A stretch of DNA of 34,775 nucleotides from an uncultured Verrucomicrobia subdivision 3 bacterium. Lineage in GTDB: Bacteria; Verrucomicrobiota; Verrucomicrobiia; Limisphaerales; UBA11358. Shown here piece after piece: positions 18,553 to 34,729 of the stretch (the first letter of the stretch is position 1; every line of letters starts with the position of its first letter). The DNA is taken from positions 1-34,775 of the forward strand of contig CAINLR010000154.1 in the NCBI GenBank assembly GCA_903850425.1, in the 5' to 3' direction. The translations under genes were made by a program, and so were the position numbers. The notes below the pieces were generated by a model. That model was not told the DNA's origin. It was given only the letters and a program-made list of their open reading frames with translations, and searched no databases.

Positions 18553-19316
18553 AGCCGGGGCAAACTATCATCGCAGTCGCCGACCCAGGCGCGACGAGTG
18601 CCGCCGAAGCGGCTGTTTTGCGCACGCAACTGTTGGCCAAGGCGGAATGGCAGAGCATCCGGCGCTTCGTTGGATCCGAACTGCAGCATGATCGCGTGGT
18701 CGCCTGGTCCTTGGTCCGGCTGGGACTCTCGCAGGCTTTCCCGGTGCGGCCGAACGAGTGGGTTTTTTCCCGGCGGGAAGATCAGCGTCCGTTTGTGCTC
18801 GCGCCGCGCGGCTTGCCACCGTTCCAATTCAGCCTGTCCCACACCAGTGGGTTGATCGCATTGCTGGTGACGTCGGCCGCCCAGGGCGGCGTGGACGCCG
18901 AGCGAATGGAGCGCACCGAGGATCTGCCGCTGGTCGCGTCGAACATCTGTGCGCCCAGCGAACTGGCGGCGCTGAAACTCCTTTCTGGCGCGGCGTGGCA
19001 GGAACGATTTTTTGAGTTTTGGACGCTGAAGGAAGCCTACGCCAAAGCCCGTGGCCCCGGCCCTTCGCTGCGCTGGTCGGACGTGGCCTTTGAGATCGAG
19101 GCCCGACGTCGGGTGAAGGTTCGATTCGCTTCCGAGGTGGCCGGCCAGCCCGCCGGTTGGCAGTTCTGGCGACATCGCATCAGGACCGGACACATGCTGG
19201 CGGTGGCGCTGCGCGGTGATCCCGGTGACGCCGGCATCGCCTTGCAACCAGTTACCGTGCGGGCGGTCGAGCAGAACGCCTGGCTTGAAATGTTGGGCGG
19301 GAGTTCTTCGCTGTAG
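18507..19316 (+). CDS. Sfp-type 4'-phosphopantetheinyl transferase
   Basis: A protein of about 269 residues that transfers phosphopantetheine from CoA to carrier-protein serines. Seen: FQFSLSHTSGLIALLVT (motif 1 region), GVDAERMER (the Mg-binding GVD-x-E motif) and FFEFWTLKEAYAKARG (the W-x-x-KEA-x-x-K motif). Length and the two-lobed layout fit the Sfp/Gsp class. The start is uncertain: I use a GTG that overlaps the NRPS end by 46 bases. TTG codons at 18540 and 18549 are alternatives. Overlap with the NRPS gene makes activation of its carrier domain the obvious role. Confidence 0.85.
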   Translation: MLRADGAGGDHLQHLKPGQTIIAVADPGATSAAEAAVLRTQLLAKAEWQSIRRFVGSELQHDRVVAWSLVRLGLSQAFPVRPNEWVFSRREDQRPFVLAPRGLPPFQFSLSHTSGLIALLVTSAAQGGVDAERMERTEDLPLVASNICAPSELAALKLLSGAAWQERFFEFWTLKEAYAKARGPGPSLRWSDVAFEIEARRRVKVRFASEVAGQPAGWQFWRHRIRTGHMLAVALRGDPGDAGIALQPVTVRAVEQNAWLEMLGGSSSL

Positions 19317-19497
19317 TCAGGGTGACCGGTGGGCGACAGGTAACGGGGACTTGATTACGTATTTGCCAAGAAAAGGTGGTCGGAGCGACAGGATTTGAAT
19401 GGCCCATAAAACCCTTTGTTTTCAAGGCTTCTGTGCGTTTTTGAGACAGCCGCGACGGGCGCAATTTACGCAGTTCGGATTGAATTGAGGATTTCAT
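19252..19497 (-). CDS. Possible chimeric small ORF across the left attachment site
   Basis: An ATG with a good upstream AAGGTGA begins a basic peptide (MKSSIQSELRKLRPSRLSQ...) inside the element. The frame then runs through the tRNA-derived core and into host DNA antisense to the PPTase end. Only the first ~35 residues are element-coded. It may be a small element gene that loses or gains its 3' part on integration, or chance. No family is recognised. Confidence 0.25.
   Translation of the reverse strand: MKSSIQSELRKLRPSRLSQKRTEALKTKGFMGHSNPVAPTTFSWQIRNQVPVTCRPPVTLTTAKNSRPTFQARRSARPPAR
19377..19399 (-). other. Left attachment site: 3' end of a tRNA gene
   Basis: Read on the minus strand this 23-base segment is a T-loop (TTCAAAT), T-stem 3' strand (CCTGT), acceptor 3' strand (CGCTCCG), discriminator A and CCA. 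The bases before it do not pair with CCTGT and no D- or anticodon arm follows, so it is a fragment and not a tRNA gene. An acceptor stem that would begin with CGGAGCG and end with A-CCA suits tRNA-Pro. This is the expected duplicate left at the distal end when an element integrates into a tRNA 3' end. The complete tRNA should lie to the right, beyond the window. Confidence 0.75.
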
Positions 19498-20907: not shown

Positions 20908-21104
20908 ATTGCGCGAAATGTGCGGTGAAGTATCAGGGCAACGTCAACCACCGGCCCCGGCTGGCGGTGAGGCCGCTGGTGAAACTCCATGCGGTGGGCG
21001 ATCACGACAAGTATTTCTGCCCGGTGTGCCGGGCGATTTATTTTTTCCCCACGGACGAACGCGGGGAGCAACTCTCCTTTAATCAACGGCTCACCCTGGC
21101 GTGA
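20904..21104 (+). CDS. Small zinc-ribbon protein B
   Basis: A 66-residue protein with MNCAKCAVKYQG and KYFCPVCRAIYFF, i.e. two CxxC knuckles about 37 residues apart. It is similar in build to the preceding gene and could be a diverged duplicate. ATGA overlap upstream. Function unknown. Confidence 0.7.
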   Translation: MNCAKCAVKYQGNVNHRPRLAVRPLVKLHAVGDHDKYFCPVCRAIYFFPTDERGEQLSFNQRLTLA

Positions 21105-21105
21105 C

Positions 21106-21372
21106 GTGAAATTCTGGACGCTCAAGGATTTGGCCGTGGCGATGCAGTTGCATCCGCGCACGGTCAAGCGTTGGTGGAAACTCCTCAACGTCAAGCCGAG
21201 CGTGGCGGGCAATGGTTGTCACCGTTGGACCGAACGCCGCGCGAAGCTCTTATTGAAGCGCTGGTCCGCTTACTGGACGGCGCGCGGCCACTCGCCGCAA
21301 GTCATCTCCCAAAAATATGCCGGCGGTTATGATGACCCGGCACAGTTGAAATTCCGTTTTCTCAAAAAATGA
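21106..21372 (+). CDS. MerR-type helix-turn-helix protein
   Basis: An 88-residue protein. The N-terminal WTLKDLAVAMQLHPRTVKRWW is a clear winged helix-turn-helix of the MerR/excisionase kind, followed by LLNVKPSVAGNGCHRWTERR, the wing. The C-terminus (LLLKRWSAYWTARGHSPQVI) is basic and helical. The GTG start lies one base after the previous stop. Such proteins act as replication accessory proteins, regulators or excisionases; its position next to the helicase suggests replication or early regulation. Confidence 0.7.
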   Translation: MKFWTLKDLAVAMQLHPRTVKRWWKLLNVKPSVAGNGCHRWTERRAKLLLKRWSAYWTARGHSPQVISQKYAGGYDDPAQLKFRFLKK

Positions 21373-21587
21373 AAATTACGTTGTCGGACGGTTTCATGGA
21401 GGCGGCGATCGAGCCGCAAGATTTAGAGTTGGAAGTGCCCTGTCCGGCTTGCCGGCTGGGGAAAAACCCAAGTGGCGGGGAATGCTCGACCTGTCGCGGG
21501 AAGAACTACGTAGTCACGCCGATTGGGCGGCAAATACTGTCGTTTGTCATCGCCAACGCCAAAGACTTCCGCGCGGGAAAGATTTGA
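21369..21587 (+). CDS. DnaJ-like cysteine-rich zinc-finger protein
   Basis: A 72-residue protein with PCPACRLGK and GECSTCRGKNYVVTPIGRQI. This CPACxxG...CxxCxG layout is that of half a DnaJ zinc finger. The C-terminus is a short helix. Start overlaps the previous stop by ATGA; the helicase ATG follows two bases after its stop. Role unknown; probably a nucleic-acid or protein-binding accessory to replication. Confidence 0.7.
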   Translation: MKITLSDGFMEAAIEPQDLELEVPCPACRLGKNPSGGECSTCRGKNYVVTPIGRQILSFVIANAKDFRAGKI

Positions 21588-21589
21588 TT

Positions 21590-22930
21590 ATGTCTAAACA
21601 CAAAGAATTTGAGCGGGTGGCCGTGTCGGGGCTGGTCAACGTCGTGGACGCGGACGCGGTGGGCAAAGTGCCGTTGCACTGTTGCCACGGCAAATGGTAT
21701 GGCCCGAACAGCGAGGGCGGTTTTTCGAGCTACAAAGACACGCAAGCCGGCGCGCTCCTGGGGCAGTTCGGTTACAGCCGGACGCAAAAGAACGACAAGG
21801 GTAACTCGGAGGCGGAAGTCGTGCTGCTCTGGCTAATGCAAAATCGTTCGGTGGACTACGCCGGCCCGCTGGCGGGCTATCCCGTTGGCCGTCACTTTAT
21901 GGGCCAGCAGCGCGTGCTGGTGACCGAGGCGTTGCGCTTGGTGGAACCCCAGGCGGGGAAGTGGAAAACGATTCAGCAGTTGACGCAATCGCTGTTGGAC
22001 GACCCGGACCACGATCAAATCACCGCGTTCTACACCGTGGCGGCGGCACGGCTGCGTTATCTCCGCGCGCGGATGGCCAAGCCCGGGGAGCAACCGTTTA
22101 TTCCGTGCCCGTGCCTGGCGCTGTTCGGTGAGTTCCAGTCGGGCAAATCGGCGTTGATTGATCTGGTGTTGGCCCCGCTGTTCGGCGGTCGCAAGGCGGA
22201 CCCGCTGGCGTTTCTAAAGGAAGGGAAATTCAACAAGGATTTGTTTCCAGCGGCGTTGCTGGTGATGGATGACAAGGGCGCATCGGCCAATCTGGACGAA
22301 CGGCGGCAGCGGGGCGACGCGCTCAAATCCGTCATCATGTCTGAATATCAGCGCATGGAGGGCAAAGGCGTGGATGCGTTGATGGTCTCGCCATTTTGGT
22401 GGCTCATCATCGCGGGTAACATGGAAGATTCTTCGCTGAACATCGCCCCGGCGCTGAATGACTCGATGCGGGACAAAATTATTTTCCTGAAATGCCGGCG
22501 CGCGGACGGCTTACCCACGACGGAGGCGGAAAAAACGGAGTGGGTTAAAAAGATTCGGGAGGAACTGCCCGCGTTCGCTGATTTTCTTTTGAAGTGGAAA
22601 GTGCCCAAGCGAACGGTGTTGAACAAGCGCAGTCGCGTGATTGATTTCTGGCACCCAGAGATTGCCGCCGCGCTGCTCGAAAAACAGCCGGAGTGCAAAG
22701 CCATTGAAGTCATTGACCTGCTCGACCTGGCCCCGTGGAAGGGCACGGCCACGGAGTTTTACAACGCCATCCGCGACGTGGACAAGGGCGGGCATCACGA
22801 ACGGCTGTTTTCGTCCATTGATAAATGCGGGCGGATGCTCTCTGAACTCGCCAAGACGATGCCGCTCCGCATCGTCAAGACCACGCCGCAAAACATCTCG
22901 CACTACGAAATCACCCGGAAACAAAAATGA
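21590..22930 (+). CDS. Superfamily 3 helicase, replication protein
   Basis: A 446-residue protein and the main replication enzyme of the element. The ATPase core has Walker A GEFQSGKS (180-187), Walker B AALLVMDDKG with Asp227-Asp228, motif C ending WWLIIAGN (Asn277), and an arginine at 294 in SMRDKIIFLK, in the position of the SF3 finger. This set is typical of SF3 helicases of the D5/DUF5906 kind. Residues 1-170 show no primase motif that I can name; CCHGKWYGPNSEGG may be a degenerate N-terminal domain. The start ATG is two bases after the preceding stop; the frame is open further up but overlaps the zinc-finger gene. The protein probably unwinds the origin and recruits host polymerase. Confidence 0.82.
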   Translation: MSKHKEFERVAVSGLVNVVDADAVGKVPLHCCHGKWYGPNSEGGFSSYKDTQAGALLGQFGYSRTQKNDKGNSEAEVVLLWLMQNRSVDYAGPLAGYPVGRHFMGQQRVLVTEALRLVEPQAGKWKTIQQLTQSLLDDPDHDQITAFYTVAAARLRYLRARMAKPGEQPFIPCPCLALFGEFQSGKSALIDLVLAPLFGGRKADPLAFLKEGKFNKDLFPAALLVMDDKGASANLDERRQRGDALKSVIMSEYQRMEGKGVDALMVSPFWWLIIAGNMEDSSLNIAPALNDSMRDKIIFLKCRRADGLPTTEAEKTEWVKKIREELPAFADFLLKWKVPKRTVLNKRSRVIDFWHPEIAAALLEKQPECKAIEVIDLLDLAPWKGTATEFYNAIRDVDKGGHHERLFSSIDKCGRMLSELAKTMPLRIVKTTPQNISHYEITRKQK

Positions 22931-23427: not shown

Positions 23428-23739
23428 ATGGCCGATGACATACCTCCGACTGCCCCTGAAACACCAGAAGTTCCGACCGCCACGCCGGACCCGGAAGTTC
23501 AAGCCCCGCCGCCCGCAACCAAGCTCGTGGTCCACGGCGTCAAGTCTGAACGCGAAATTGAACTCGAAGCCCGCGTAGAAGCGGCGGAGAAAAAACAGCG
23601 CGACGAGGAATTTATCGCCGCCGAAAAGGAACGCGAAGCGCAGGAACTCAAACGCATCCCGGCCCCGCCGCGCGCCAAGCCGGTCAAGAAACACAACTGG
23701 CTCGCGCCGATCATCGGCGCGGATGACGAGGAAGACTGA
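23428..23739 (+). CDS. Acidic/coiled-coil late protein, possible scaffold
   Basis: A 103-residue protein of biased composition. The first 30 residues are Pro/Thr/Glu-rich (PPTAPETPEVPTATPDPEVQ). The centre is a long charged helix, SEREIELEARVEAAEKKQRD then EEFIAAEKEREAQELKR, a likely coiled coil. The end has a Pro/Lys segment and the acidic GADDEED. No family is recognised. Position at the head of the late operon and the helix make a scaffold or membrane-associated assembly factor possible. There is no Shine-Dalgarno; the ATG follows an A-rich run. Confidence 0.6.
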   Translation: MADDIPPTAPETPEVPTATPDPEVQAPPPATKLVVHGVKSEREIELEARVEAAEKKQRDEEFIAAEKEREAQELKRIPAPPRAKPVKKHNWLAPIIGADDEED

Positions 23740-23779: not shown

Positions 23780-24553
23780 ATGAATGAAATTCTTAAATCG
23801 GTTCCGCCGGCCCAGCCCGGGGCTAAGCCAGTGGCGGCAACGACCGGGCAGCCCGCTCCTGTGGCTGCTCCGGCGGGTCAATCGGTCCCGCTCTTTGGCG
23901 GTCATCGCGGCGGCGGAAAGAAGCGCGCGGATGGCCTGCCAGCGGGCAGCCCGGAGGCAATCGAGGCTGACCGCAAGAAAGACCGCGAGCGCAAAAATGC
24001 GGCGAACGCTGCAAAGAAAGGCACGCCACTGCCGCCGGCATTGCCGGGTGCAACGCCGCCGGCTGCAAACGCGCCTGGGGCGCTGGCTGGGAGTCCAGCT
24101 GTTGTGTCTGGCGCTGTGGTTGCTGCTCCTGGCGTTGCCGTGGCTGCTCCGCTATTTGTGCCGTGGTCGCAAAAGCTGATTGAAAAACCGGCGCGGCTGC
24201 TCACCAAGATTGCCGACCGGCTGCGCGTGTGGTCATTGATGAAGCACGTTCGCCGATTGCAACTCACGCCGGAGGAGGAAAAGGAAATTGCCGCCGATCT
24301 GCGCTACAAGGATGAAGTCTTGAACGATTTCAACCTGGCGCTGGCGGAGGCGGCCACGGTTGAACTGAACAAACGCAACACGCCCGGCGCGGCCAATTCG
24401 CATTGGATCAATCTCAGCATGACCGGCGGCGAACTGGTGTTGCTGCATCTGCAAAGCTTGGACCGGATCGAAAAGCTGGTCCTGGCCAAAGCGGACGCGC
24501 TCAAAAAAGAAATTGCCGCCAAGGAAGCGGCGATGGCCACGAATAAAAATTAA
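23780..24553 (+). CDS. Ala/Pro-rich late structural-type protein
   Basis: A 257-residue protein. Residues 1-130 are low-complexity Ala/Pro/Gly with a basic patch (HRGGGKKRADGLP, then ADRKKDRERKNAANAAKKG). A short hydrophobic stretch (VVSGAVVAAPGVAVAAPLFV) follows, perhaps membrane-associated. The C-terminal third is helical: IADRLRVWSLMKHVRRLQL, EEEKEIAADLRYKDEVLNDF, then LDRIEKLVLAKADALKKEIA. No family recognised. It lies directly before the packaging ATPase. A DNA- or membrane-binding packaging or internal virion protein is a guess. Confidence 0.6.
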   Translation: MNEILKSVPPAQPGAKPVAATTGQPAPVAAPAGQSVPLFGGHRGGGKKRADGLPAGSPEAIEADRKKDRERKNAANAAKKGTPLPPALPGATPPAANAPGALAGSPAVVSGAVVAAPGVAVAAPLFVPWSQKLIEKPARLLTKIADRLRVWSLMKHVRRLQLTPEEEKEIAADLRYKDEVLNDFNLALAEAATVELNKRNTPGAANSHWINLSMTGGELVLLHLQSLDRIEKLVLAKADALKKEIAAKEAAMATNKN

Positions 24554-24630: not shown

Positions 24631-24637
24631 TTCGTTG

Positions 24638-24673: not shown

Positions 24674-25324
24674 ATGCCCGATTACTCCCTCCCCCCGTGC
24701 GTGACGCTGATTTTTGGGCGTTGCGGTTCCGGCAAGACGACGATGGCGTTTCGCTACATTGCCAACGCGCTGGCCGAACAGCCGGCCAACGTCAACCCGG
24801 CGGCGTGCGTCTTTATTTTCGATTGGAAGCTGGAAGCGGCCCACCGGCTGGGCGTCACGCCCGCTGGCACGGCGGCGCAGTGCGAAGCGGCGGTGTCCAC
24901 GCGGCTGGTTTGTTTCGAGCCTTCGGTGATGTTCCAGGAGCGGCAGAAGGACGCTTTCCGCTGGTTCTGCCATTGGGTGTTTGAAGTCAGCCGGCGCGGA
25001 CCGGGCAAGAAAATCTTTTTCTGTGATGAGTTGTGGAAATTCGTGGATGCGCAATCGCTCCCGGTGGAACTGGAAAAAATCGCGCGCATCGGGCGGGCGG
25101 AAAACTTGGAACTGCTCACCGCGACGCAGCATCCGCGTGACTACCATCGGGACATCCGGGCGGAAGTGACGGAATGGATTTGCTTCAACACCACCGAGCC
25201 GGGCGATCTGGACGCCGTGCGGCCCTATTTCCGCGACGTGGACAAGGTGGCCTTGCTCCCGCGCGGTTCATTCATCGGATACAACCGCGAGAGCGGGGCG
25301 GAACTGGCGGGAAAGTTATTTTAG
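24674..25324 (+). CDS. A32/FtsK-HerA-type genome packaging ATPase
   Basis: A 216-residue ATPase. Walker A is GRCGSGKTT (from residue 15), Walker B KKIFFCDE (112-119), then ELLTATQHP with Thr149 and Gln152, the A32-type sensor motif. FIFDWKLEA after the first helix and PYFRDVDKVALLPRG near the end also fit. This compact size and motif set are those of packaging ATPases of membrane-containing double-jelly-roll viruses (PM2 P9, PRD1 P9). Zot of filamentous phages is related but normally has a membrane helix, absent here. The frame is open 39 bases upstream, but that part is translated heptamer repeat, so I start at ATG in MPDYSL. Confidence 0.85.
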   Translation: MPDYSLPPCVTLIFGRCGSGKTTMAFRYIANALAEQPANVNPAACVFIFDWKLEAAHRLGVTPAGTAAQCEAAVSTRLVCFEPSVMFQERQKDAFRWFCHWVFEVSRRGPGKKIFFCDELWKFVDAQSLPVELEKIARIGRAENLELLTATQHPRDYHRDIRAEVTEWICFNTTEPGDLDAVRPYFRDVDKVALLPRGSFIGYNRESGAELAGKLF

Positions 25325-25629
25325 GCTTCTGGAAACATGGCGGGCAGATTCATCGCGCCATGCAGCACCCGCACCAAAAAGACATCCTCCGCCCGCACTT
25401 GGTAGAAAATCAGGTAGCTCTCAAAACCAGCCACGCGAAAACTGCGCAGATTGGGTTGGGCTAAATCTTTTCGGCGGCGTCCGATCTCCGGTTGGCTGGC
25501 AATCAACTCCACTGCCGCCAGCATCCGGTTTTCAAAGCGGACGGACAAAGCGGGCGAAACCTCCCCGGCGAACTGGGTGACGATCTCGGCAAAGTCATCT
25601 TCAAAAACCGAACTAAAAACGAGTTTCAT
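25321..25629 (-). CDS. ParE/RelE-family toxin
   Basis: A 102-residue protein of the RelE/ParE fold: MKLVFSSVFEDDFAEIVTQF, then ELIASQPEIGRRRKDL, LRSFRVAGFESYLIFYQV and VFLVRVLHGAMNLPAMF. This is the order of helix hairpin and beta-sheet with conserved Arg and the final LHGA. ParE toxins poison gyrase; RelE cut mRNA. It is on the minus strand between late genes, with its stop overlapping the ATPase stop and its start overlapping the antitoxin stop (ATGA). Confidence 0.85.
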   Translation of the reverse strand: MKLVFSSVFEDDFAEIVTQFAGEVSPALSVRFENRMLAAVELIASQPEIGRRRKDLAQPNLRSFRVAGFESYLIFYQVRAEDVFLVRVLHGAMNLPAMFPEA

Positions 25630-25880
25630 TTGACGGTGGCGCGGGCTTTGGCGGCGATTTCCCGCAACCGATTCAGCGAGCCGGCCCGCTCTTTTCCGGC
25701 CATGCCTTCATCCACCATCTTTTGCAGTGACTTGGACCGAAGCGAGTCTTCTACTTCAAAACTGAACTGGATGCGCGCCAAGGCCTCCTGATTAATGCTG
25801 CGGAAATTACGCTCCGCGCTCGCGGAAAGACGTTCCTTGATTTCGTCCGTTACACCTTTGACCTGTATTTGATAGCTCAT
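25626..25880 (-). CDS. Antitoxin of the ParE-type module
   Basis: An 84-residue protein. The first 50 residues fit a ribbon-helix-helix: SYQIQVKGVTDEIKERLSAS, then RNFRSINQEALARIQFSFEV, as in FitA/CopG-like antitoxins. The C-terminal helix (AGSLNRLREIAAKARATVK) would wrap the toxin. ATG at MSYQIQ is chosen because the upstream extension is not conserved-looking. Antitoxin first and toxin second with a 4-base overlap is the usual layout. Confidence 0.82.
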   Translation of the reverse strand: MSYQIQVKGVTDEIKERLSASAERNFRSINQEALARIQFSFEVEDSLRSKSLQKMVDEGMAGKERAGSLNRLREIAAKARATVK

Positions 25881-25931
25881 GCGCAACCATAACACACCCT
25901 TTTCGACTGTCAAAGAAACGCCATTAAGCAA

Positions 25932-26245: not shown

Positions 26246-26371
26246 ATGAAAAAATTCGTGCCCTATCTCATCACCGGCCTGGTCGCCATCGTCGCCGTCA
26301 AAGTTCTCTACCCGATCTTGCAACCCTACGCGGCCAAAGTGCCGTTGGTGGGTGGCTTCTTCAAGGCGTGA
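26246..26371 (+). CDS. 41-residue single-span membrane protein
   Basis: Lys-Lys N-terminus, then the helix VPYLITGLVAIVAVKVLYPI, then an amphipathic end with PLVGGFFKA. Third positions are GC-rich as in neighbouring genes. Size and place directly before the candidate capsid gene fit the small membrane proteins of lipid-containing virions. No Shine-Dalgarno; the ATG follows CCCCAA. Confidence 0.65.
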   Translation: MKKFVPYLITGLVAIVAVKVLYPILQPYAAKVPLVGGFFKA

Positions 26372-26416
26372 CCCATCTGGTTTAACCCCGCAACCGCAAC
26401 CTCAGTTAAAAAAAAT

Positions 26417-27319
26417 ATGTCCACTAAACGCAGAGTTCTTCTTCCGACGATCACCGGCATTGTGCCCAGCTCGGCCATCGGCACCGTCGGCACGCTCGAC
26501 ATTCCCATCGGCTCCGGTTTCCGGTTGCACGATCTCCAAATCGTTTACATTGATGGCGGCGGCTCGCCGACCGATGTCACGGCCATGTTCTCGGACATCG
26601 GCATTTACCGGAACGGCACGCCCCAGCGCACGTTTGCGTCGGCCTCCGATCTGGACCACATGAACAGCTTGAACGGCTCGCAGTATGCGCGCCAGCAGGT
26701 CAACACCGGGGCCAACATGCGGCAGACCTTGCCCGTGTTCATGGCGGAACCGTGGCGCAAAGACAAGGTGGACACCGATGTCCTCGCGTGGAATGTCTGC
26801 GCGGAGAATGGTTGGAAGACGCTGCAAGTGAAACTCAAGCTGGCGACGGCCATGCCCAGCACCGGTTCCCTGGTGTGCTACGCCTGGATTGAAGACGTGC
26901 CCACGGCGTTGCGCGGCGTGGCGCAGTCCATCAAGAAAGTTTACACGCAGCAAATCCCGGCGAGTGGCCTGTCCATTGACGTGACCACGTTGGACCAGAA
27001 AGACGCGCTGCAAGTCATCAGCCTGAAGCATCCCACCACGGGCGTCATCACCAAGGTTTCGCTCAAGCGCAATTCGGACCTCATCATGGACCAGGTGGTC
27101 CGCGAGGATAATTACGCCGCGCTCATTGGCAAAGGCATGGTGCCGGCCAACTCCACCACGGCGAGCGCCTTCGGCTACGACATCGTGCTCGACGCGGATG
27201 ATCCGAACAACTCCGCGCTCTACGCGCAGGGGCAAAGCCTGTGGCTGCAAGTCGCCTTCAGCGTGGCGGCAGCCGGCAATGTCATCGCGGTCATTGAGCG
27301 CATTGGACCGCTCGACTAA
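26417..27319 (+). CDS. Candidate major capsid protein, PM2 P2-like double jelly roll
   Basis: A 300-residue protein without signal peptide or membrane span and with strand-rich sequence throughout. The N-terminal third follows the pattern I associate with P2-type coat proteins: a smooth strand (VGTLDIPIG), GFRLHDLQIVYI, then FSDIGIYRNGTPQRTF (61-73) and SDLDHMNSLNG (77-87), where 'I-x-x-x-NG' and 'LD-x-x-N' recur in the family. A second strand-rich half begins after about 150 (LQVKLKLATAM, GSLVCYAWIEDVP) and ends with LWLQVAFSVAAAGNVIAVIE. Two similar halves and the size fit a double jelly roll. It sits downstream of the packaging ATPase. An 11-bp hairpin follows the gene. Not proven without structure prediction. 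Confidence 0.7.
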   Translation: MSTKRRVLLPTITGIVPSSAIGTVGTLDIPIGSGFRLHDLQIVYIDGGGSPTDVTAMFSDIGIYRNGTPQRTFASASDLDHMNSLNGSQYARQQVNTGANMRQTLPVFMAEPWRKDKVDTDVLAWNVCAENGWKTLQVKLKLATAMPSTGSLVCYAWIEDVPTALRGVAQSIKKVYTQQIPASGLSIDVTTLDQKDALQVISLKHPTTGVITKVSLKRNSDLIMDQVVREDNYAALIGKGMVPANSTTASAFGYDIVLDADDPNNSALYAQGQSLWLQVAFSVAAAGNVIAVIERIGPLD

Positions 27320-27356
27320 GGAATTAAACGCACCGCTCCGGCGGTCATCACCCCAC

Positions 27357-27383
27357 GCGCGCCGCCCATCCGGGGCGGCGCGC
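27357..27383 (+). terminator. Strong hairpin after the capsid gene, partial terminator
   Basis: Arms GCGCGCCGCCC and GGGCGGCGCGC pair over 11 bp around ATCCG. The T-tract begins only 13 bases later and overlaps the leader of the next gene, so it may be an attenuator that lets the capsid mRNA accumulate over distal genes, or a 3' stabiliser. Confidence 0.65.
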
Positions 27384-27412
27384 ACTCCCCCAACAATTTT
27401 TAATTTTTTTTT

Positions 27413-27787
27413 ATGGCAGCAACCGATCAATACGGCAACACGGCGGACACCCTCGCGGCGATCTATGGCGGCAGTGCCAGCGATTATTCCAGCGACATGG
27501 TAGACGCTCCATCGCCCACCGTCGCGGCTGGCAGTAGCGGCAGCGGCAACGGCGGCTGGTCCTCGATCTTTGGCTCGTTGCTGGGCGCAGCCGGCACGGC
27601 TTACGGTTCCACGGTCGCGGCCAACACCGCCGCCGGTCAGCAAAACACCGCCAAACAAATCGCGGCGCTCAACGCCAACACGGCCAACAACAGCAGTGCC
27701 ACGCTCATGAAGATTGTGCCCTGGCTGATTGTCGGCGCAGTGGCTTTGCTTGTCGGCGCGTTTCTCCTCAAACGTAGTCGCGGTTAA
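27413..27787 (+). CDS. Tail-anchored small membrane protein 1
   Basis: A 124-residue protein. Residues 1-95 are Gly/Ala/Ser/Asn-rich and probably disordered or glycine-zipper like (SIFGSLLGAAGTAYGSTVAA). Residues 101-119 form one membrane helix (IVPWLIVGAVALLVGAFLL) followed by KRSRG. The positive end should stay in the cytoplasm or virion interior. The gene follows the capsid hairpin and a short AT run. It belongs to a set of four such proteins in this operon. Confidence 0.65.
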   Translation: MAATDQYGNTADTLAAIYGGSASDYSSDMVDAPSPTVAAGSSGSGNGGWSSIFGSLLGAAGTAYGSTVAANTAAGQQNTAKQIAALNANTANNSSATLMKIVPWLIVGAVALLVGAFLLKRSRG

Positions 27788-27794
27788 ACCGGCT

Positions 27795-28112
27795 ATGTAT
27801 GACACCAGCACAGCCAACCCGATCAACCCGCAAGGGACGGTCGGTGGCGGCAATGTGTTCTACGCCGCGCCGATCTTCGGTTATTCGGCGATCAGCGGCG
27901 GCGGCAGTTTTGGCAACAACCCGGCCACCACCACGAACAAGGACACGGCGGCGCTGGGCGGCGGCGCCACCTCCGCCGATGTGCCGGCGGCTGGCAGCAC
28001 GCAAACGCTGACCAGTTTTCTGGCGGCGAACAAAACCCTGTTGTTGGTGGGCGCGGGCATCTTCGGAGCCGTGCTGATTCTCCTGAGCGTGTTCAACTCC
28101 AAATCCAAGTGA
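27795..28112 (+). CDS. Tail-anchored small membrane protein 2
   Basis: A 105-residue protein with a Gly/Asn/Thr-rich ectodomain (residues 1-75) and a single C-terminal helix, LLLVGAGIFGAVLILLSVF (82-100), then NSKSK. It starts 8 bases after the previous stop and its end overlaps the next GTG. Composition and layout repeat those of the two flanking genes, though the ectodomains are not alike. Confidence 0.65.
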   Translation: MYDTSTANPINPQGTVGGGNVFYAAPIFGYSAISGGGSFGNNPATTTNKDTAALGGGATSADVPAAGSTQTLTSFLAANKTLLLVGAGIFGAVLILLSVFNSKSK

Positions 28113-28648
28113 GAAATTTTCATCCGCAATTCCGACGCGGGCGGTTGGACGAAGCCGAAGGTTTCATCCTTCAACCTTCATCCCTCATCCTTTGTTTTCA
28201 CAAGGGCGACGCCAGCCAGGCGCAGACGAGCGAACAGGTTGGCGCGCAAACCGCCGGCGTGGCCGTGCATGGCGATAGCAACACGGCGAACACGGGCAAC
28301 CAGATTATCATCGGCAGCGCGACGGATAACAGCCAGCGGACGAACACTCGCCCCTGGCGGCCACAAGACGCCGGCAAGGAAAGTTCCGGAGGCGGTTCTG
28401 GCAGTGTGACGCCCGTGGTCAACGCCACTATTTCCAACGGCCTTTCCAGTGCCGACGTGACGGCGGCGATCAGCGCACTGGCATCGGCCTTTGCGCCCGC
28501 AGTCGCCCCGGTGGCTGCCGCCCCCAAACCGGCCACGGACGCCGCCCCGGCCACCCCGGCATTTAGTTTGACCACCTTGCAGACGGTCGCGGCGGTCGCG
28601 GCCATTGGCGGCACGGCCTACTTATTTCTCAAACGCAAAAAATCATGA
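28109..28648 (+). CDS. Tail-anchored small membrane protein 3, heptamer repeat in the 5' end
   Basis: A 179-codon frame starting with an overlapping GTG. The first ~33 codons include a CT-rich heptamer array (translated EGFILQPSSLILCF) and are probably not original coding sequence; the true protein may begin further in, near VAVHGDSNTANTGNQIIIG. The middle is Ala/Pro/Ser-rich. The C-terminus has LTTLQTVAAVAAIGGTAYLFL as a membrane helix and ends KRKKS. The stop overlaps the next ATG. Confidence 0.55.
   Translation: MRNFHPQFRRGRLDEAEGFILQPSSLILCFHKGDASQAQTSEQVGAQTAGVAVHGDSNTANTGNQIIIGSATDNSQRTNTRPWRPQDAGKESSGGGSGSVTPVVNATISNGLSSADVTAAISALASAFAPAVAPVAAAPKPATDAAPATPAFSLTTLQTVAAVAAIGGTAYLFLKRKKS
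28163..28190. repeat. CT-rich heptamer tandem repeat
   Basis: Four exact-period heptamers: TTCATCC, TTCAACC, TTCATCC, CTCATCC. It lies within the annotated 5' end of the third membrane protein gene. Period 7 equals that of the AT-rich arrays elsewhere in the element. Confidence 0.8.
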
Positions 28649-29262
28649 GCCAAGAAATCACTCTCACGCTTGCCGCCGGCGCGGCGGCGATGAATAAAAC
28701 CTCCGGCAAATTCATGTCCGTCAAGGCGTGTTCACTGCCGCTGCTCGCCGCCTTCAACGGTGGCCCGGAGCAAACCATCAGTGCCGGCATGGTCATTGAC
28801 CGTTCGGACGCGGAAATCACTTACGTCAATTTGCGCAATTCTCAGAGCGTGGCCGTGACGATCACGTTTTACATTGATGCCAACCCGGTGAACTACGCAC
28901 CGGCCAACAACGCCGTCAGCACGGCGGACACGTTCGCGCTGGGCAATCTGGGCGTGGGCATCGGCGGCGCGGCCAACTCGGCGTTTGCCGGCTCCCCGGC
29001 GGATGTCGGCGGCTACCTCACCATTGGCGCGACGGCGCTAGCCATCCCGGCCAATGGCTACCGGCGGCAGCAAATCACATTCAGCGTGGCGGCGGGGCAG
29101 GCGTTTCCGCTGGCGATTTTGGATCCGAACGGCAACGCCTTCATGCTGCTGGGCAGCGGCGATAAAATTGTGTTGATGACCTCGACGGCGCTCTCGGTCA
29201 AGGGCATTGGCGGCTCGGTGTCGGTTTCCATCGGCCAAATTTTTTATAGCTCCAATGGATGA
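28645..29262 (+). CDS. Beta-rich virion protein, candidate vertex (penton) protein
   Basis: A 205-residue protein, strand-rich and without membrane helix or signal peptide: SQEITLTLAAGAAAMN, ITYVNLRNSQSVAVTITFYI, YRRQQITFSVAAGQAFPLAI, GDKIVLMTSTALSVKGIGG and VSVSIGQIFYS. Alternating strands of this number are compatible with one jelly roll. Lying downstream of the capsid gene and before fibre genes, it is a candidate for the fivefold-vertex protein. No family is recognised with certainty. Its ATG overlaps the previous stop and its stop overlaps the next ATG. Confidence 0.55.
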   Translation: MSQEITLTLAAGAAAMNKTSGKFMSVKACSLPLLAAFNGGPEQTISAGMVIDRSDAEITYVNLRNSQSVAVTITFYIDANPVNYAPANNAVSTADTFALGNLGVGIGGAANSAFAGSPADVGGYLTIGATALAIPANGYRRQQITFSVAAGQAFPLAILDPNGNAFMLLGSGDKIVLMTSTALSVKGIGGSVSVSIGQIFYSSNG

Positions 29263-29453: not shown

Positions 29454-29617
29454 TTTTGCCGCCGCACAACCTTTTTGGCGAACCGACACCTGGCCTGGTG
29501 TCCAGCAAGTCCGGCGCGGGCGCGGGCACGGCGGCGCAACCCGCTGGCACGATTTTGGAAACTGAAGACGGCGCGGAACTGCAAACCGAAGATAACAAAT
29601 ACATCGCAACTGAATGA
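29450..29617 (+). CDS. Short TEDG-repeat protein, copy 2
   Basis: A 55-residue protein, MILPPHNLFGEPTPGLVSS..., with a Gly/Ala linker and ILETEDGAELQTEDNKYIATE. It matches the previous gene at both ends, so the two arose by tandem duplication. Overlaps by ATGA on both sides. Its end overlaps the first fibre gene. Confidence 0.65.
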   Translation: MILPPHNLFGEPTPGLVSSKSGAGAGTAAQPAGTILETEDGAELQTEDNKYIATE

Positions 29618-30501
29618 AAAAACTTTTAATGCTCGCAATGGCGGCGCTCGCGCTCGCCAGCCAGGCCCAGACGAACCTCGTCAAAATCTCCGCCCTGCCG
29701 GCGACTCAACTCATCACCGGCAATGAGCTGGTGCCCATTGTCCAGACCGGCACCAACCGCCAGGCGAACGTCAACCAAATCATCGCCGGGGCGTCGGCGC
29801 TGGCGAATAATTGCAACGCCTATTTCCTTTTGGTGGACGCCACGAACAAGGCGACGATGGCCACAAACCTTTTTGCCTTGTCTGCGGCCACGAACCTGTT
29901 GACGGCAGCGGTCGCGGCGCAAACGAACCGGATCGCGGAGTTATTCAGTCACACCAACGACCCGGTGGCAGCGGCCCGGCTCACCGGCTTGGGCAATGCG
30001 ATTTACGGTGACACGAATAATTTTTACCGGACGACCAACCCGAACGGCTACCAGACATCGGGCGACGTGGCGGCAGCGGTCGCGGCGGGCCTGGCGGGCG
30101 TGCCTACCAGCGGCGGCAGCATGACGTTGACGACGTTGACGGCCACGAACGTGGTGACGCCCAGCCGCACCAGCCCCGTGATTGGCGGCTTTACCGGTAG
30201 CATGGTGACTAACCTCGATTTTTCCGCCAGCTCATTGCAGCGCGTTGAACTGTTTCCGGGGAACGGGGCGAGCACCGCCATTTTCCGACCGGCCAACGCG
30301 GCGGACGGCCAACAGGTTTATGCTTTGGTTCACTCTTCGGTCAGCGTGCAAGTGAACTCGGCCACGGTGGCCAGCGGCGGGCTGTTTAGCGTGCGCAATG
30401 TCGGATCAACGCTGACTCTGGCGGCGGGCCAGTATTCGCTGCTTAACTGGATCGTCATGGGAACAAACATTATCTACTCCGCCAGCCCGGCCTTTAACTG
30501 A
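29614..30501 (+). CDS. Fibre-like receptor-binding protein with signal peptide
   Basis: A 295-residue protein. Residues 1-19 (KKLLMLAMAALALASQAQ) form a typical Sec signal with A-x-A cleavage. Directly after is VKISALPATQLITGNELVPIVQTGTNRQANVNQI, a version of the 'ISALP..T.L.G.DLVPIVQ.G' start seen in tail fibres and spikes of many phages. The centre is Ala/Thr/Asn-rich with helix (NLLTAAVAAQTNRIAEL). The end is a beta domain (VQVNSATVASGGLFSVRNVG, LLNWIVMGTNIIYSA). It is probably the host-recognition spike. Confidence 0.65.
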   Translation: MKKLLMLAMAALALASQAQTNLVKISALPATQLITGNELVPIVQTGTNRQANVNQIIAGASALANNCNAYFLLVDATNKATMATNLFALSAATNLLTAAVAAQTNRIAELFSHTNDPVAAARLTGLGNAIYGDTNNFYRTTNPNGYQTSGDVAAAVAAGLAGVPTSGGSMTLTTLTATNVVTPSRTSPVIGGFTGSMVTNLDFSASSLQRVELFPGNGASTAIFRPANAADGQQVYALVHSSVSVQVNSATVASGGLFSVRNVGSTLTLAAGQYSLLNWIVMGTNIIYSASPAFN

Positions 30502-30502
30502 T

Positions 30503-31477
30503 ATGCGCGCACTCTTTTTCTCCCTGGTGTTGTTGCTCGCGGCCACCGCGCACGCCTTCATCTTTTTTCCTGCCGACTGGTCCGCCGTGGAATCCGCCGC
30601 CTACCACGCCGACAACATTGACAACGGCGCGGGCACAAACGTGGTGTTGAGCGGCGCTTTCAGCGGTAGCTTGGACGCCCGCACGTTGAACTTCCGAGAC
30701 AATGTTGATACCGGCACCGGTTTGTATTTTTATCCGACCAATGCACTATTAGGCGTTTCATGGTTCGGCCTATCGGACGCGAATAATGGCGACTTGGAAT
30801 TGAGCACCGCGCAAAGCGATAGCGTATTAAACATTTACAGCATTGTAGATTTCAAAGGCTACCAAGTCCGAAACGGTGTTTTTTCGGGCGACGGTTCAGG
30901 CCTCTCCAATGTTGTTCCTTTGATTGCAGCCCAAACAGTAGACACCACCGACACTTCTTTTGTGGGTGGTTTCAGGACTTATGGTGTAGATCAATTTATA
31001 TGTCAGGATGACAACCAAACTGGATTGGTGTTGACAAGTTTAACCAACTCGGGAGACGGCGCAGTCTGGTTTTGCGGATCGGTTGGAGCCGAAACAATGT
31101 GGTTTGCAGCAGGTTCGCCAATGGTTGTAGATGGTGGTATTTACGACGGAATAGGAACTCACTTTGACCCTGGAAATTTGGCTATAATGCCCAAAGTAAG
31201 GAAACTTTTTGGAACGAACGGAACTGACGTTGTGCTTGATTGGTCGAAAGGAACAAATGCGGGAAAATTCTCCGGCAGCTTCTCCGGCAGCTTCTCCGGC
31301 AGCTTCTCCGGCAGCTTCTCCGGCAAAGGCTTTGTCGCACAAACCAACTCGTTCTCGCTTTCTTCGTTCACAAATGGCTGGATGCCTGGAACAGTAGGAT
31401 CAACTACGTCCAACGGCTGGCCGTTCAAAGCGTGGATAACCCCGGCCGGCGCACTGGTGACTTCGACCAATCTTTAA
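30503..31477 (+). CDS. Second fibre-like protein with signal peptide and FSGS array
   Basis: A 324-residue protein starting one base after the previous stop. The signal peptide is RALFFSLVLLLAATAHA. Motifs include VVLSGAFSGSLDARTLNFRD and NGVFSGDGSGLSNVVPL, the 'FSGDGSGLTN' fibre motif. Residues 256-275 are five FSGS/FSGK units. The C-terminus (WPFKAWITPAGALVTSTNL) resembles fibre ends. Between about 30,705 and 31,260 the DNA is visibly more AT-rich than its neighbours with AT-rich third positions, which suggests an exchanged domain. Confidence 0.65.
   Translation: MRALFFSLVLLLAATAHAFIFFPADWSAVESAAYHADNIDNGAGTNVVLSGAFSGSLDARTLNFRDNVDTGTGLYFYPTNALLGVSWFGLSDANNGDLELSTAQSDSVLNIYSIVDFKGYQVRNGVFSGDGSGLSNVVPLIAAQTVDTTDTSFVGGFRTYGVDQFICQDDNQTGLVLTSLTNSGDGAVWFCGSVGAETMWFAAGSPMVVDGGIYDGIGTHFDPGNLAIMPKVRKLFGTNGTDVVLDWSKGTNAGKFSGSFSGSFSGSFSGSFSGKGFVAQTNSFSLSSFTNGWMPGTVGSTTSNGWPFKAWITPAGALVTSTNL
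31268..31327 (+). repeat. Five 12-base tandem repeats in the fibre gene
   Basis: Four identical TTCTCCGGCAGC units and a fifth ending CAAA, in frame as FSGS. Exact repeats of a codon multiple let the protein lengthen or shorten by slippage without frameshift. Confidence 0.95.
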
Positions 31478-31497
31478 CCCCCCCCAAAAAAAACAAT

Positions 31498-31899
31498 ATG
31501 TCCTGGTTTGATCTCTCCTACTTCTTCACCGGCCAAAACGAAACGGCGCGCGGCCAAGCTCTGGACGCGCAGCTTGCCACCATGAATAACGCCGACTACG
31601 CCCCCGGCGGACGGCTCTACGGCCTGATTGCCAGCGACCGGGGCGCGGTTGCCGCCGACGCCGCCTTTGCGGAAACGCAAGCGCACCTTGCCGCGCAGGA
31701 GGCCGACACCGCCAGCTACAATTCGCAAGTGGCCAGTGCCGCCGCCGATGGCGCGGTGAGTGGCCTTAAAAGCGTCGCGGACCTGGTCAAGAATCCGTTC
31801 CTGGGCATCCCCGTCGCCTGGTGGATCATCGGCGGCGTGGGGCTGTTCCTTTACGCCGGCGGCGCGTCCTGGCTGCGCGGCGCGTTCAAGAAAAAATAA
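31498..31899 (+). CDS. Tail-anchored membrane protein 4
   Basis: A 133-residue protein. N-terminus SWFDLSYFFTGQNETARGQ, an Ala-rich helical centre (DAAFAETQAHLAAQEADTAS) that may be a coiled coil, then one membrane helix GIPVAWWIIGGVGLFLYAG (103-121) and a basic end FKKK. It follows the fibre gene after a C8-A8 homopolymer stretch. The longer frame upstream overlaps the fibre gene and is not used. Confidence 0.65.
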   Translation: MSWFDLSYFFTGQNETARGQALDAQLATMNNADYAPGGRLYGLIASDRGAVAADAAFAETQAHLAAQEADTASYNSQVASAAADGAVSGLKSVADLVKNPFLGIPVAWWIIGGVGLFLYAGGASWLRGAFKKK

Positions 31900-31903
31900 G
31901 TTT

Positions 31904-32068
31904 ATGACGCTCGAAGCCATCATGGAATTTATCCTGTTGCCCTGTGTCGGCTGGCTCATGCTGACCACGAGCAAACAATCCGCCAAGCTGGCGCGCATTG
32001 AAACCTTGCTCGACTTGATTCTGCCCGATCACCAAAAGAACCACCCCAAAAAGAAACATGAATACTGA
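31904..32068 (+). CDS. 54-residue membrane protein
   Basis: MTLEAIMEFILLPCVGWLML forms one membrane span; then a charged helix (KQSAKLARIETLLDLILPD) and a basic end NHPKKKHEY. It sits four bases after the previous stop and overlaps the next gene by 11 bases. Size and topology are those of a small holin partner or virion membrane protein. Confidence 0.6.
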   Translation: MTLEAIMEFILLPCVGWLMLTTSKQSAKLARIETLLDLILPDHQKNHPKKKHEY

Positions 32069-32684
32069 CCAACTCTCCTCCCTCGTCCGCACGGTGATGA
32101 AGCTCGCCGCCGCCCTGCTCGCCAGCCACGGCCTGGCCGACACCGCCGGCCTCATCAACACGCCCGACGTGACCGCCGCCGTGCTCTTGATCGTCTCGCT
32201 GCTCTGGTCACACTTCAGCCACGCCGACCCCGATGGCACGCCGCCGACCACCGGCACCGGCACACGCCTGGCCTTGTGGCTGGCGCTCATCATTCCGGCA
32301 CTGGTGTTCACCGGCTGCGCGGCGCTCGCCCCCGGCGCGCGGCCCGAAGTGGTCCGCGCGGAGCAAAGCATCAGCATCGGCACGGCCACGCTCAACACCG
32401 CCATTCACATGGACAACGCCAACCGCGCGTTCTACAAAACCAATCTGCCGCCCTTTCATGCTTTTTGCGAATGGCTCCGGCAACCCGTCACGCTCGCCCC
32501 GCTCACCAACGCGTATCCGCGCGGCCTAGCCATCGTGCGCAGTGCCGACGCTGTGAAGAACCGTTACAAGGCGAGCGGCGCCACCAACGATCTGACGGCG
32601 CTCACGGCGGCACTGGCCACACTGGAAACCGCCCTCAGTCAAGCGCAAGGCTATCTGGCCCAAATTCCCCAGCCGGCGCATTGA
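32058..32684 (+). CDS. Holin-like domain fused to a lipoprotein-type domain
   Basis: A 208-residue protein with two parts. Residues 1-55 (RTVMKLAAALLASHGLADTA and VTAAVLLIVSLLWSHFSHAD) match small phage holin-like proteins with two membrane segments. A linker PDGTPPTTGTGTR leads to LALWLALIIPALVFTGCAAL, a lipoprotein signal with FTGC lipobox. The rest is a helical periplasmic-type domain (ALTAALATLETALSQAQGYL). This could be holin plus outer spanin in one frame, or two genes with an unconventional internal start (TTG or CTG near 32,272). Confidence 0.55.
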   Translation: MNTDQLSSLVRTVMKLAAALLASHGLADTAGLINTPDVTAAVLLIVSLLWSHFSHADPDGTPPTTGTGTRLALWLALIIPALVFTGCAALAPGARPEVVRAEQSISIGTATLNTAIHMDNANRAFYKTNLPPFHAFCEWLRQPVTLAPLTNAYPRGLAIVRSADAVKNRYKASGATNDLTALTAALATLETALSQAQGYLAQIPQPAH

Positions 32685-32731: not shown

Positions 32732-33088
32732 ATGTCCGCCATCATCGCCCTCATCCTCGCCAATCTGCCCACGATCATTTCCGCCGGGGAAGCCGGTTAC
32801 AAATTTGTGATGTCCGTCCGCTCCGCCGCCCAGCAAAGCGGCGAATGGACCGACGCGCAGGAAACCGCGTTTCAAGCCAGCCTCACCGCCGAAGCCTGTG
32901 ACCCCGCCTGGCAGCCCGATGCCACCGCCGCCGAACTCGCCACCGTCAAGGCGCAGTTGGCCACCGCGCAAGATGCGTTGACCTTGGCGCTCGCCATCGC
33001 TCCGCCGCCGCCGCCGCCGCCGCCACCGGCCCCGACGGTTGAAGAACCCTACATCGCCCCCGATCTCCGGCCCGGTTGGACGGATTAA
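32732..33088 (+). CDS. Late protein with N-terminal hydrophobic helix and polyproline
   Basis: A 118-residue protein. Residues 1-19 (MSAIIALILANLPTIISAGE) are a hydrophobic helix; a charged helical centre follows (FVMSVRSAAQQSGEWTDAQE, then LATVKAQLATAQDALTLALA). A run of ten prolines (broken only by Ala) precedes VEEPYIAPDLRPGWTD. No family is recognised. Helix layout resembles small phage proteins near the lysis genes. It is the last gene before a strong terminator. Confidence 0.6.
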   Translation: MSAIIALILANLPTIISAGEAGYKFVMSVRSAAQQSGEWTDAQETAFQASLTAEACDPAWQPDATAAELATVKAQLATAQDALTLALAIAPPPPPPPPPAPTVEEPYIAPDLRPGWTD

Positions 33089-33184: not shown

Positions 33185-33677
33185 ATGAAAGCCACCCTGG
33201 CGGAACAAATTGACGAACGCAACCGGCTCACCTTGGAACGGCACCGCTATGAGAAGCACATCCTCACCCGCATCTTCGCCAGCGAAAAACTACGATCTGC
33301 GGCCCGTCACGCTCGCCAGCGCGCTCGCCTGGCTGCGCGGCGAAATCCACGACACGCAAATGCCCCCCGGCGGCGACGTGGTGTTCTGGAATGAGATTCT
33401 GAACCGTGATGGCTACCGCGAGAGCCTGCCCCTGATTGCCGCGCTCGCCGGCACCGGCTGCAAGGCCATGATCGTCCATGCGTGCAACCCCATCGTCTGG
33501 CGCAAACTGGAAAAGGAAAAGTGTGTGGCCACGATGGAAGAACGCATCTTTTGGCGTGGGGCGGACTACACCGCGCGCCGCTACCTCGCGCCGCCGGCCA
33601 CCTTTGCCGCGTGGATAGCAAAACTCCCGTTGTCATCACCCTCGCCAAAAATCAAAACGCCTGTAATCGAATCCTAG
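33185..33677 (+). pseudogene. Frameshifted or +1-recoded gene, unknown function
   Basis: Coding signal switches frame. From the ATG (MKATLAEQIDERNRLTLERH, then YEKHILTRIFASE) third positions are nearly all G or C until about 33,284. Beyond that the frame one base on has this property (NYDLRPVTLASALAWLRGE, GDVVFWNEILNRDGYRESLP, CKAMIVHACNPIVWRKLEKE). The shift lies in GAAAAAC; one A fewer would restore a 163-residue protein. Either a homopolymer mutation or sequencing error, or programmed frameshifting. The ATG follows the terminator T-run with no ribosome site. The stop shares CTAG with the convergent integrase stop. No family recognised. Confidence 0.6.
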
Positions 33678-34729
33678 CGCGTCAATTTCGGACGAATTTC
33701 AAAAAAAGCGGCGGCAACGTCCGGTCGGACCAATTCGCGGTAGTGTTTAAACAACATCGTCTCGCTGTGACCGCACTCCAAAGCCGTTTTGCCGGCGTTC
33801 TGAAACTGGGCCAAGTGGTAGCTGCAAAACGAATGGCGCGTCGCGTTGTGATGCCACGGCACGCCCGTGGCCCTAGTCATGGCTGCGGTGAAGTCTCGCC
33901 AGACATTGGACTTGCTCCCGCGCACCGGCAACTCCCCGCCCAGGTCCAACCACGCGCGCAAGTTCGGTTGGATCGTCACCAGCCGGCGGCGGCGGGCACG
34001 ACCGCCCTTGGCCGTCTCGACGGTCACTTCAATAAATTTCTCGCCGAGGCATTTTTCCTCCATCCGCTCCGCCTCGCAACTGCGCAAGCCGGCGAAATAG
34101 CGGCACGCCAGCGCGCGGCAAATGTTCGCGTCATAGCGGCGCGCGAAGTCCAACACCGCTTGCGCCTGGTCCGGCGAGTGGATCTGAATTTCGTCAAAAT
34201 CTTCGACGGGCAACTCGACGCCGGCGGCGGGATTGGTTTTAAGCAGTCCACGGCGCACGCCAAAATTAAAGAGCGTCCGCACATCGGCCACATAGCCGCG
34301 TTGCGTGCGCGCGGCCCACTCCGGGCGACGCATCCATTTTTCAATTTCTTCTACGGTGACTTCGATCACGGGCTTATGTGCGCGACCGGTGTTGAATTTG
34401 GAAAGCGAATTGCGCAAGGCGCGGAGATACCTGTCAGAGCGGCCCGCGCGGGCTTTGGCCAAAAGGAATTGATTCACCAACTCAACGACGGTCAGAGAGT
34501 CCGGCGGATAGACCACCACCGGCGGAGTTGGGGAAGACGGCGCGAAGTGACCTTGTGAATGCGCAGCGGCCAAGTTTTGCAACTGGCGACCGATCTCCGC
34601 GAGCGCACTCCAAACCTGCTGGTCCTGCCCCGCCGCACTAGTGTAGTGTTCTGTAAATGAGGGGTCATAACGGTGATGTGGCGACTTGGGCCGCCCGGGC
34701 TTTGGAAATCTTGGCCAGAATTTCCTCAC
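33674..34729 (-). CDS. Tyrosine recombinase (integrase), 5' end replaced by IS sequence
   Basis: Catalytic residues are in place: Arg216 (YFAGLRSCEAERM), Lys241 (AKGGRARRR), Arg298 in HNATRHSF, His321 (CGHSETM) and Tyr330 (FKHYREL). The first His of HxxR is Asn, as in many relatives from this group of bacteria. A SAM-like core-binding domain lies at about 79-160 (LTVVELVNQFLLAKARAG). The first ~30 residues from the GTG are encoded by the adjoining IS630-like end, so the native start is lost or lay elsewhere. The protein would integrate the element at the tRNA site. It may still work if started in the IS. Confidence 0.88.
   Translation of the reverse strand: MRKFWPRFPKPGRPKSPHHRYDPSFTEHYTSAAGQDQQVWSALAEIGRQLQNLAAAHSQGHFAPSSPTPPVVVYPPDSLTVVELVNQFLLAKARAGRSDRYLRALRNSLSKFNTGRAHKPVIEVTVEEIEKWMRRPEWAARTQRGYVADVRTLFNFGVRRGLLKTNPAAGVELPVEDFDEIQIHSPDQAQAVLDFARRYDANICRALACRYFAGLRSCEAERMEEKCLGEKFIEVTVETAKGGRARRRRLVTIQPNLRAWLDLGGELPVRGSKSNVWRDFTAAMTRATGVPWHHNATRHSFCSYHLAQFQNAGKTALECGHSETMLFKHYRELVRPDVAAAFFEIRPKLTR

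Follow-up and report, generated by a model that had tools for sequence, protein, structure and literature searches.

A gene for a probable PM2/autolykivirus-type major capsid protein in a provirus of an uncultured Verrucomicrobia bacterium

What does the reading frame at 26417-27319 encode, and does it place a virus in the chromosome of its host? It lies in a stretch of 34,775 nucleotides (the window), which is the entire contig C154 of a 6.9-Mb genome in 197 contigs from an uncultured Verrucomicrobia subdivision 3 bacterium. The assembly yielded no 16S rRNA gene; of five same-class genomes, three have a site identical to a Verrucomicrobiota-specific 16S probe and two lack it. A preliminary description of this DNA took the reading frame for a capsid candidate with a P2-like N-terminal pattern. 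We read it as follows.

26417-27319, plus strand: almost certainly the major capsid protein, a double jelly roll protein of the PM2 P2/autolykivirus type (300 aa, ATG start)

The two motifs on which the preliminary description relied, SDIGIYRNGTPQRTF and SDLDHMNSLNG, said to lie a few residues apart, are present: they begin at residues 59 and 77, respectively, are separated by three residues and fall in the region of the 300-residue protein that is best aligned with autolykiviruses. An alignment of four sequences, the window protein, a near copy from the same genome and two autolykivirus coat proteins, shows the same residue throughout at N66, G67, P69, S75, L79, N83 and G87. In an alignment of ten rows that spans the autolykivirus, PM2 and NO16 types, G67 is the same in every row, and L79 and N83 are so in nearly every row.

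Single-sequence searches found almost nothing, so the remark in the preliminary description that the sequence is far from any that could be named holds. By tblastn, the capsid alone matched two of 50,697 phage records (E 0.3 and 0.6), both of them autolykivirus coat genes, over residues 1-87; no match came from PDB sequences (phmmer, up to E 10), from PHROGs (up to E 1) or from NCBIfam (up to E 0.01), and scans of IMG/VR and GTDB contigs gave no confirmed match. A profile of ten phage coat proteins, built without the window (four autolykiviruses, PM2, PG21, a NO16-like phage, GXT1010 and two Vibrio prophages), matches 26417-27319 with 25.9 bits (E 6.1e-7), which is the sole significant match among 327 window ORFs (next best, 7.6 bits), and none of 2000 shuffled copies is significant (best, 7.3 bits). 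Profile-profile comparison of the window pair with the phage coat proteins extends the similarity over nearly the full length (residues 6-297; probability 94.9, E 4.7e-8), with a score of 58.8; the reversed pair scored 15.0, and none of 200 column shuffles exceeded 24.0. The profile search that the preliminary description had called for is therefore positive. The curated models say less: the only Pfam match is P2_C, a model of the C-terminal part of the viral P2 coat protein, which covers residues 173-298 with 23.8 bits (cut-off 25) and, when run on the genome, scores the window capsid at 25.6 bits, about the cut-off, in a run where three of 14 control genomes also gave matches, none of them above the cut-off. 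P2_N has no match at E<=1 in either the window capsid or its near copy, so the "P2-like N-terminal pattern" stands by comparison with autolykivirus proteins and not by the P2_N model. Membership among the P2-type coat proteins of Vinavirales is accordingly indicated by profile and fold matches, with P2_C borderline and P2_N without a match for the window copy. On the antisense side, a 483-aa minus-strand ORF (26402-27853) overlaps the capsid gene.

The fold was modelled twice. From the single sequence, no usable model resulted (mean pLDDT 38). The model with eight relatives in the alignment (pLDDT 68, pTM 0.60) is a double jelly roll, the fold that the preliminary description had expected, and its top PDB match is PM2 P2 (2vvf; Foldseek E 1.3e-13; Z 21.0 over 258 residues at 3.2 A), with the STIV, PR772 and PRD1 coat proteins next in the fold list (Z 15.8-17.9). 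The eight relatives were picked as one of 382 tried subsets of nine, by the criterion that MAFFT aligned the FMAEP stretch with its expected partner; the PM2 near copies L042 and L043, and L046, were omitted. The model leans on P2-type sequences because of this selection, and because PM2 P2 is itself in the alignment and the subset was chosen, the fold result supports the sequence result without being independent of it. Together with the two profile results, the predicted fold bears out the capsid candidate.

According to the available part of PMC8812541, proteins of the DUF2961/GH172 type have a double jelly roll fold too, and 8ic8, 4kq7 and 8ah3 appear in the fold list of the capsid model with Z of 11.1-11.7. 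The gene might then encode a cellular protein of this glycosidase family and not a capsid, a reading to which the glycoside hydrolases among the host genes left of the provirus would lend some colour. We regard it as improbable in the extreme, as PM2 P2 scores far higher (Z 21.0) than the glycosidase-type folds, sequence profiles match phage coat proteins with the DUF2961 model absent at E<=1, and the neighbours of the supposed glycosidase gene are a packaging ATPase and an integrase.

A phage capsid is also what the surrounding genes suggest. In the following lines, C167 is a second contig of the same genome and numbers with G are other genomes.

24674-25324, plus strand: packaging ATPase, a homologue of PM2 P9 and of the ATPases of autolykiviruses (profile alignment; phrog_2666, E 3.3e-18)
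26246-26371, plus strand: 41-aa one-helix membrane protein in the gap between ATPase and capsid genes, of PM2 P7 place and type (hydropathy, position)
27413-27787, plus strand: small one-helix membrane protein, probably of the virion (hydropathy; 73% identical in C167)
27795-28112, plus strand: small one-helix membrane protein, probably of the virion (hydropathy; 83% identical over 96 residues in C167)
28109-28648, plus strand: membrane-type protein, probably a virion protein (63% identical in C167)
28645-29262, plus strand: 205-aa protein, candidate vertex/spike protein (C167, E 5e-48; G559, E 4e-5)
29614-30501, plus strand: late protein of 295 aa, perhaps fibre-like (matched in part in C167, E 1.5e-5, and in G271, E 9e-4)
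30503-31477, plus strand: 324-aa late protein with a signal-peptide-like start and a repeated SGSF stretch (sequence)
31498-31899, plus strand: 133-aa protein with a C-terminal helix, kept in relatives (G395, E 3e-6; G473, E 9e-12)
32058-32684, plus strand: holin-like membrane protein, candidate lysis protein (G559, E 3e-75; G473, E 7e-8)
32732-33088, plus strand: 118-aa late protein conserved in G559 (E 8e-23)

The ATPase ORF is listed from a TTG at 24635, and the ATG at 24674 was chosen as its start. Profile alignment of five relatives with three phage ATPases gives prob 97.0, E 7.9e-11 and a score of 71.9, where the best of 60 shuffles reaches 18.4; a P9-type packaging ATPase thus lies close to the capsid gene, as is typical of Vinavirales. 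A small membrane gene in the P7 place, a frequent though not universal feature of the order, is present by position: the 41-aa protein has counterparts at the equal place in C167 and G395 (identified by eye), and its hhalign comparison with PM2 P7 is not significant. Such a small gene between ATPase and capsid occurs in many genomes according to the available part of a 2022 census (PMC9502842). The order of ATPase, small membrane gene and coat gene is that of two autolykiviruses and of PM2.

Because late proteins of 205-324 aa without an assigned function are present, another late gene could encode the true major capsid protein, which would leave 26417-27319 with a minor capsid or vertex protein. 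This is very unlikely, since the protein matches major capsid proteins in size and over its full length, and the position of its gene, directly behind those for the ATPase and a small membrane protein, is the one seen in PM2 and autolykiviruses. The protein of 27413-27787 is weakly matched in two genomes, G473 (E 4e-4) and G559 (E 0.004), and that of 27795-28112 weakly resembles PM2 P8 (hhalign, prob 19.9, 19 columns). The 28645-29262 protein, a vertex/spike candidate by position only, matches phrog_11964, a family with no assigned function (E 6e-4); none of 12 window proteins compared as single sequences by hhalign was significantly similar to the PM2 P1 spike. A P1-type spike with a penton domain is stated for each analysed clade A-C genome (PMC9502842, available part). 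When the other late proteins were compared with PM2 proteins as single sequences, no significant match appeared, and P1, P3 and P5 were not recognised. The products of 29614-30501 and 30503-31477 have no Pfam match; in the latter, four SGSF units stand in tandem (31271-31318). For 31498-31899 the ATG at 31498 was chosen as the start, and its relatives were searched with the query frame 31240-31899. The holin-like protein matches Pfam Phage_holin_10 with E 8e-4, below the cut-off.

With high confidence, we thus assign 26417-27319 to the major capsid protein of a tailless, probably membrane-containing, double-stranded DNA phage that is integrated here and is of the PM2/autolykivirus type, in the order Vinavirales. 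As this chromosomal virus carries a gene for a PM2-related double-barrel shell protein, the bacterium hosts a small tailless phage, of a kind that has been little studied. In the PM2 model, coat trimers tile an icosahedral shell over an inner membrane. By analogy, the capsid protein would fold as two jelly rolls, with three copies making a hexagonal capsomer, and the capsomers would assemble into an icosahedral shell around an inner membrane formed with the small membrane proteins encoded around the capsid gene; the P9-type ATPase would package the DNA, and the integrase would insert the phage genome at the end of a tRNA gene. The homology, the predicted fold, the gene neighbourhood, a second copy under purifying selection and the integrase with a tRNA-type attachment sequence come from the data; the trimer, the inner membrane, packaging, particle release and a virus that can still be produced are inferred.

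The genes upstream of the ATPase, and a minus-strand pair beyond it, are as follows.

20989-21372, plus strand: small helix-turn-helix-like protein (relative in C167, E 3e-10; weak Pfam matches below cut-off)
21449-22930, plus strand: DUF5906 protein, probable replication protein (Pfam PF19263, E 1.7e-10, above cut-off)
23428-23739, plus strand: 103-aa protein (relatives in C167, E 1e-6; G490, E 5e-10; G395, E 0.002)
23780-24553, plus strand: 257-aa protein 5' of the ATPase, positioned like PM2 gp-h (G490, E 2e-11)
25321-25629, minus strand: ParE toxin (Pfam PF05016, 54.8 bits, above cut-off)
25626-25931, minus strand: Arc-like antitoxin, the probable partner of ParE (Pfam PF03869, 23.1 bits, above cut-off)

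The DUF5906 protein, whose role we take to be that of a helicase, may serve replication. The protein of 23780-24553 did not match PM2 gp-h. The ParE/Arc-like pair (25321-25931) lies on the opposite strand between the ATPase and the 41-aa membrane gene and so interrupts the structural block. Only 346 bases separate the ATPase and coat genes of the C167 element, into which the toxin-antitoxin pair would not fit.

The provirus spans from about 19376 to past the contig end, and its edges are marked by three features.

19376-19399, minus strand: probable left attachment site, whose 24 bp match the 3' end of tRNA-Pro(TGG) exactly
33674-34641, minus strand: tyrosine integrase, N-terminal part apparently missing (phrog_1, E 2.8e-16)
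34642-34775, no strand assigned: end of a dispersed repeat, a probable insertion sequence (edge about 34638-34642)

The 24-bp match starts just past a host gene that ends at 19316, and the tRNA is from the same genome. The integrase is 50% identical to residues 59-364 of a 368-codon frame in G395; as that frame was measured from stop to stop, the length of the missing start is unsure. The integrase frame continues open for about 30 codons into the dispersed repeat, which is found at 25 places in the genome, that in the window included, and elsewhere adjoins an unrelated gene, also at a contig end. The repeat is probably an insertion sequence. Because it replaces the integrase start and ends the contig, the right end of the provirus and the right attachment site are missing, and because it occupies the integrase start, this copy probably cannot excise unaided. 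Most tailless prophages of Vibrio cyclitrophicus have integrases, with dusA as one hotspot (PMC11630473, available part).

A cut integrase raises the question of whether the capsid gene belongs to a decayed provirus that no longer makes particles. The same reading would fit the 2022 census, which in its available part calls the Verrucomicrobia prophages extremely divergent and possibly degenerate, places them in Vinavirales clade A and leaves them out of its core-gene count (PMC9502842), and it would fit a Pfam scan in which no lysin was recognised among the scanned window proteins; a known lysin is likewise absent from the Verrucomicrobia prophages in that part of the census. We consider decay unlikely, though a serious contender, as the capsid, ATPase and small membrane genes are open, tRNA repeats are found at both ends in two relatives, and the capsid gene has a dN/dS of about 0.14 between the two copies in this genome (dN 0.090, dS 0.627), which speaks for the lineage and not for the window copy.

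The second of these copies, on C167 (L008/L009), encodes a coat protein 87% identical to that of the window, and its coat gene and that of the window are under purifying selection. Between the window and the last 21.8 kb of C167, DNA similarity is confined to 26385-28511 (79% identity), starting just before the coat gene. As the coat-membrane block is common to both elements whereas their ATPases are only 35% identical, the two look like mosaics. The DUF5906 protein has no match in C167 at E<=1e-4, with one weak match (E 0.0055) well before the element. This resembles the exchange of replication genes that has been reported between two clade A prophages (PMC9502842, available part).

A search with the capsid sequence alone returned two of 387 genomes of the phylum, its own and one chance match; the latter, in G034 (E 0.0042), was dropped, since it lies in frame inside a 628-aa ORF unlike a coat protein. 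The coat-protein profile built in this work finds further members. As no more than six candidates were scored in any genome, the profile searches give minimum counts: at least five of the 387 genomes of the phylum and at least seven of 384 genomes of the class, the latter being its own, G490, G559, G473, G395, G048 and G271. Among the four phylum genomes besides its own, only G271 was counted. The match in G171 spans 39 positions with two stop codons inside, and those in G334 and G119 are short (E 0.005 and 0.007). Among eight same-class coat proteins, two of them from the window's own genome, P2_N is above the cut-off in four (G271, G395, G473 and G048) and P2_C in one by hmmscan (G271). In an unrooted tree of 20 coat proteins, in which G048, G271 and G559 form long branches, a branch with 99/99 support sets the eight same-phylum sequences apart from cortico- and autolykiviruses and Vibrio prophages. 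The window protein thus groups with seven same-phylum sequences and not inside the Corticoviridae or Autolykiviridae branch.

Both ends can be seen in two of the eight elements. In G048 (L056, 76-14389) an exact direct repeat of 46 bp, spaced 14,268 bp, lies in tRNA-Met with an integrase adjoining, and in G559 (L057, 1085-14540) a 61-bp repeat (84%), spaced 13,395 bp, lies in tRNA-Val. Taken as boundaries, these repeats would give provirus lengths of about 14.3 and 13.4 kb, respectively. In C167 and G490, too, a tRNA gene (Gly and Thr, respectively) stands a short way ahead of the first ORF that has a counterpart in the window; none was found in the provirus stretches of G271, G395 and G473, those of G395 and G473 being short contigs. 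Because the coat gene is under purifying selection in two copies and the relatives have tRNA repeats beside a tyrosine integrase, we argue that at least some Verrucomicrobia Vinavirales proviruses are working temperate phages, and we suggest insertion at tRNA genes as their integration route. The available part of the 2022 census describes the integration mechanism of Vinavirales prophages as clear for one group only (PMC9502842). In the literature searched, with most subscription journals outside its scope, we found no report of an integrase and tRNA sites for the Verrucomicrobia group.

How does this provirus relate to known phages? PM2-type prophages are a large published group (PMC5894146, available part), and the window provirus is a further example of the Verrucomicrobia Vinavirales prophages already reported. 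Those of clade A, "Mestraviridae" (PMC9502842), share with it, in the available part of their description, the host group, a P2-type coat protein, a P9-type ATPase, a small membrane gene between ATPase and coat genes and the lack of a recognised lysin; the comparison is with that description only, and the window has in addition an integrase and a tRNA sequence. Autolykiviridae (Vibrio phages 1.008.O and 1.080.O) have the same order of ATPase, small gene and coat gene and a coat N-terminus 36% identical over 76 columns, whereas overall coat identity is 18-24%, depending on the alignment, and, unlike the window with its DUF5906 protein and integrase, these phages encode a putative terminal protein and a DNA polymerase of type B. 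Corticoviridae (Pseudoalteromonas phage PM2) resemble it in the double jelly roll P2 coat, the homologous ATPase P9 and small structural genes flanking the coat gene, but coat identity is 17-18% and the replication gene differs. Jorvik-like phages are likewise Vinavirales prophages outside Corticoviridae and Autolykiviridae; their hosts are alphaproteobacterial, and the available text of PMC10589892 gives Jorvik no predicted integrase and dif-like sites, in contrast to the integrase of the window. Tentatively, and with rather more doubt than conviction, we propose that the same-class proviruses may form a family-level lineage of tailless phages in Verrucomicrobiota, separate from the five published Vinavirales clades and functional, which would insert into tRNA genes by tyrosine integrase and swap replication and packaging genes around one retained coat-membrane block.

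Further searches with single proteins found no more members: scans of IMG/VR and GTDB contigs with the G271 protein gave none confirmed, IMG/VR scans with the window ATPase and with PG21 gave none, and plasmids had no match to the G271 protein. Contig scans with the autolykivirus, 1.249.A, PM2 and NO16-like proteins gave 4, 1, 4 and 2 loci, respectively, all of those same kinds. The G271 provirus, in a one-contig genome, encodes a Rep_1 rolling-circle protein (L024, 18366-19811, minus strand), against the DUF5906 protein of the window. On the host side of the window, 15790-19316 holds a small peptide-synthetase-like pair: first an AMP-binding/carrier/thioesterase protein of 920 aa, then a phosphopantetheinyl transferase.
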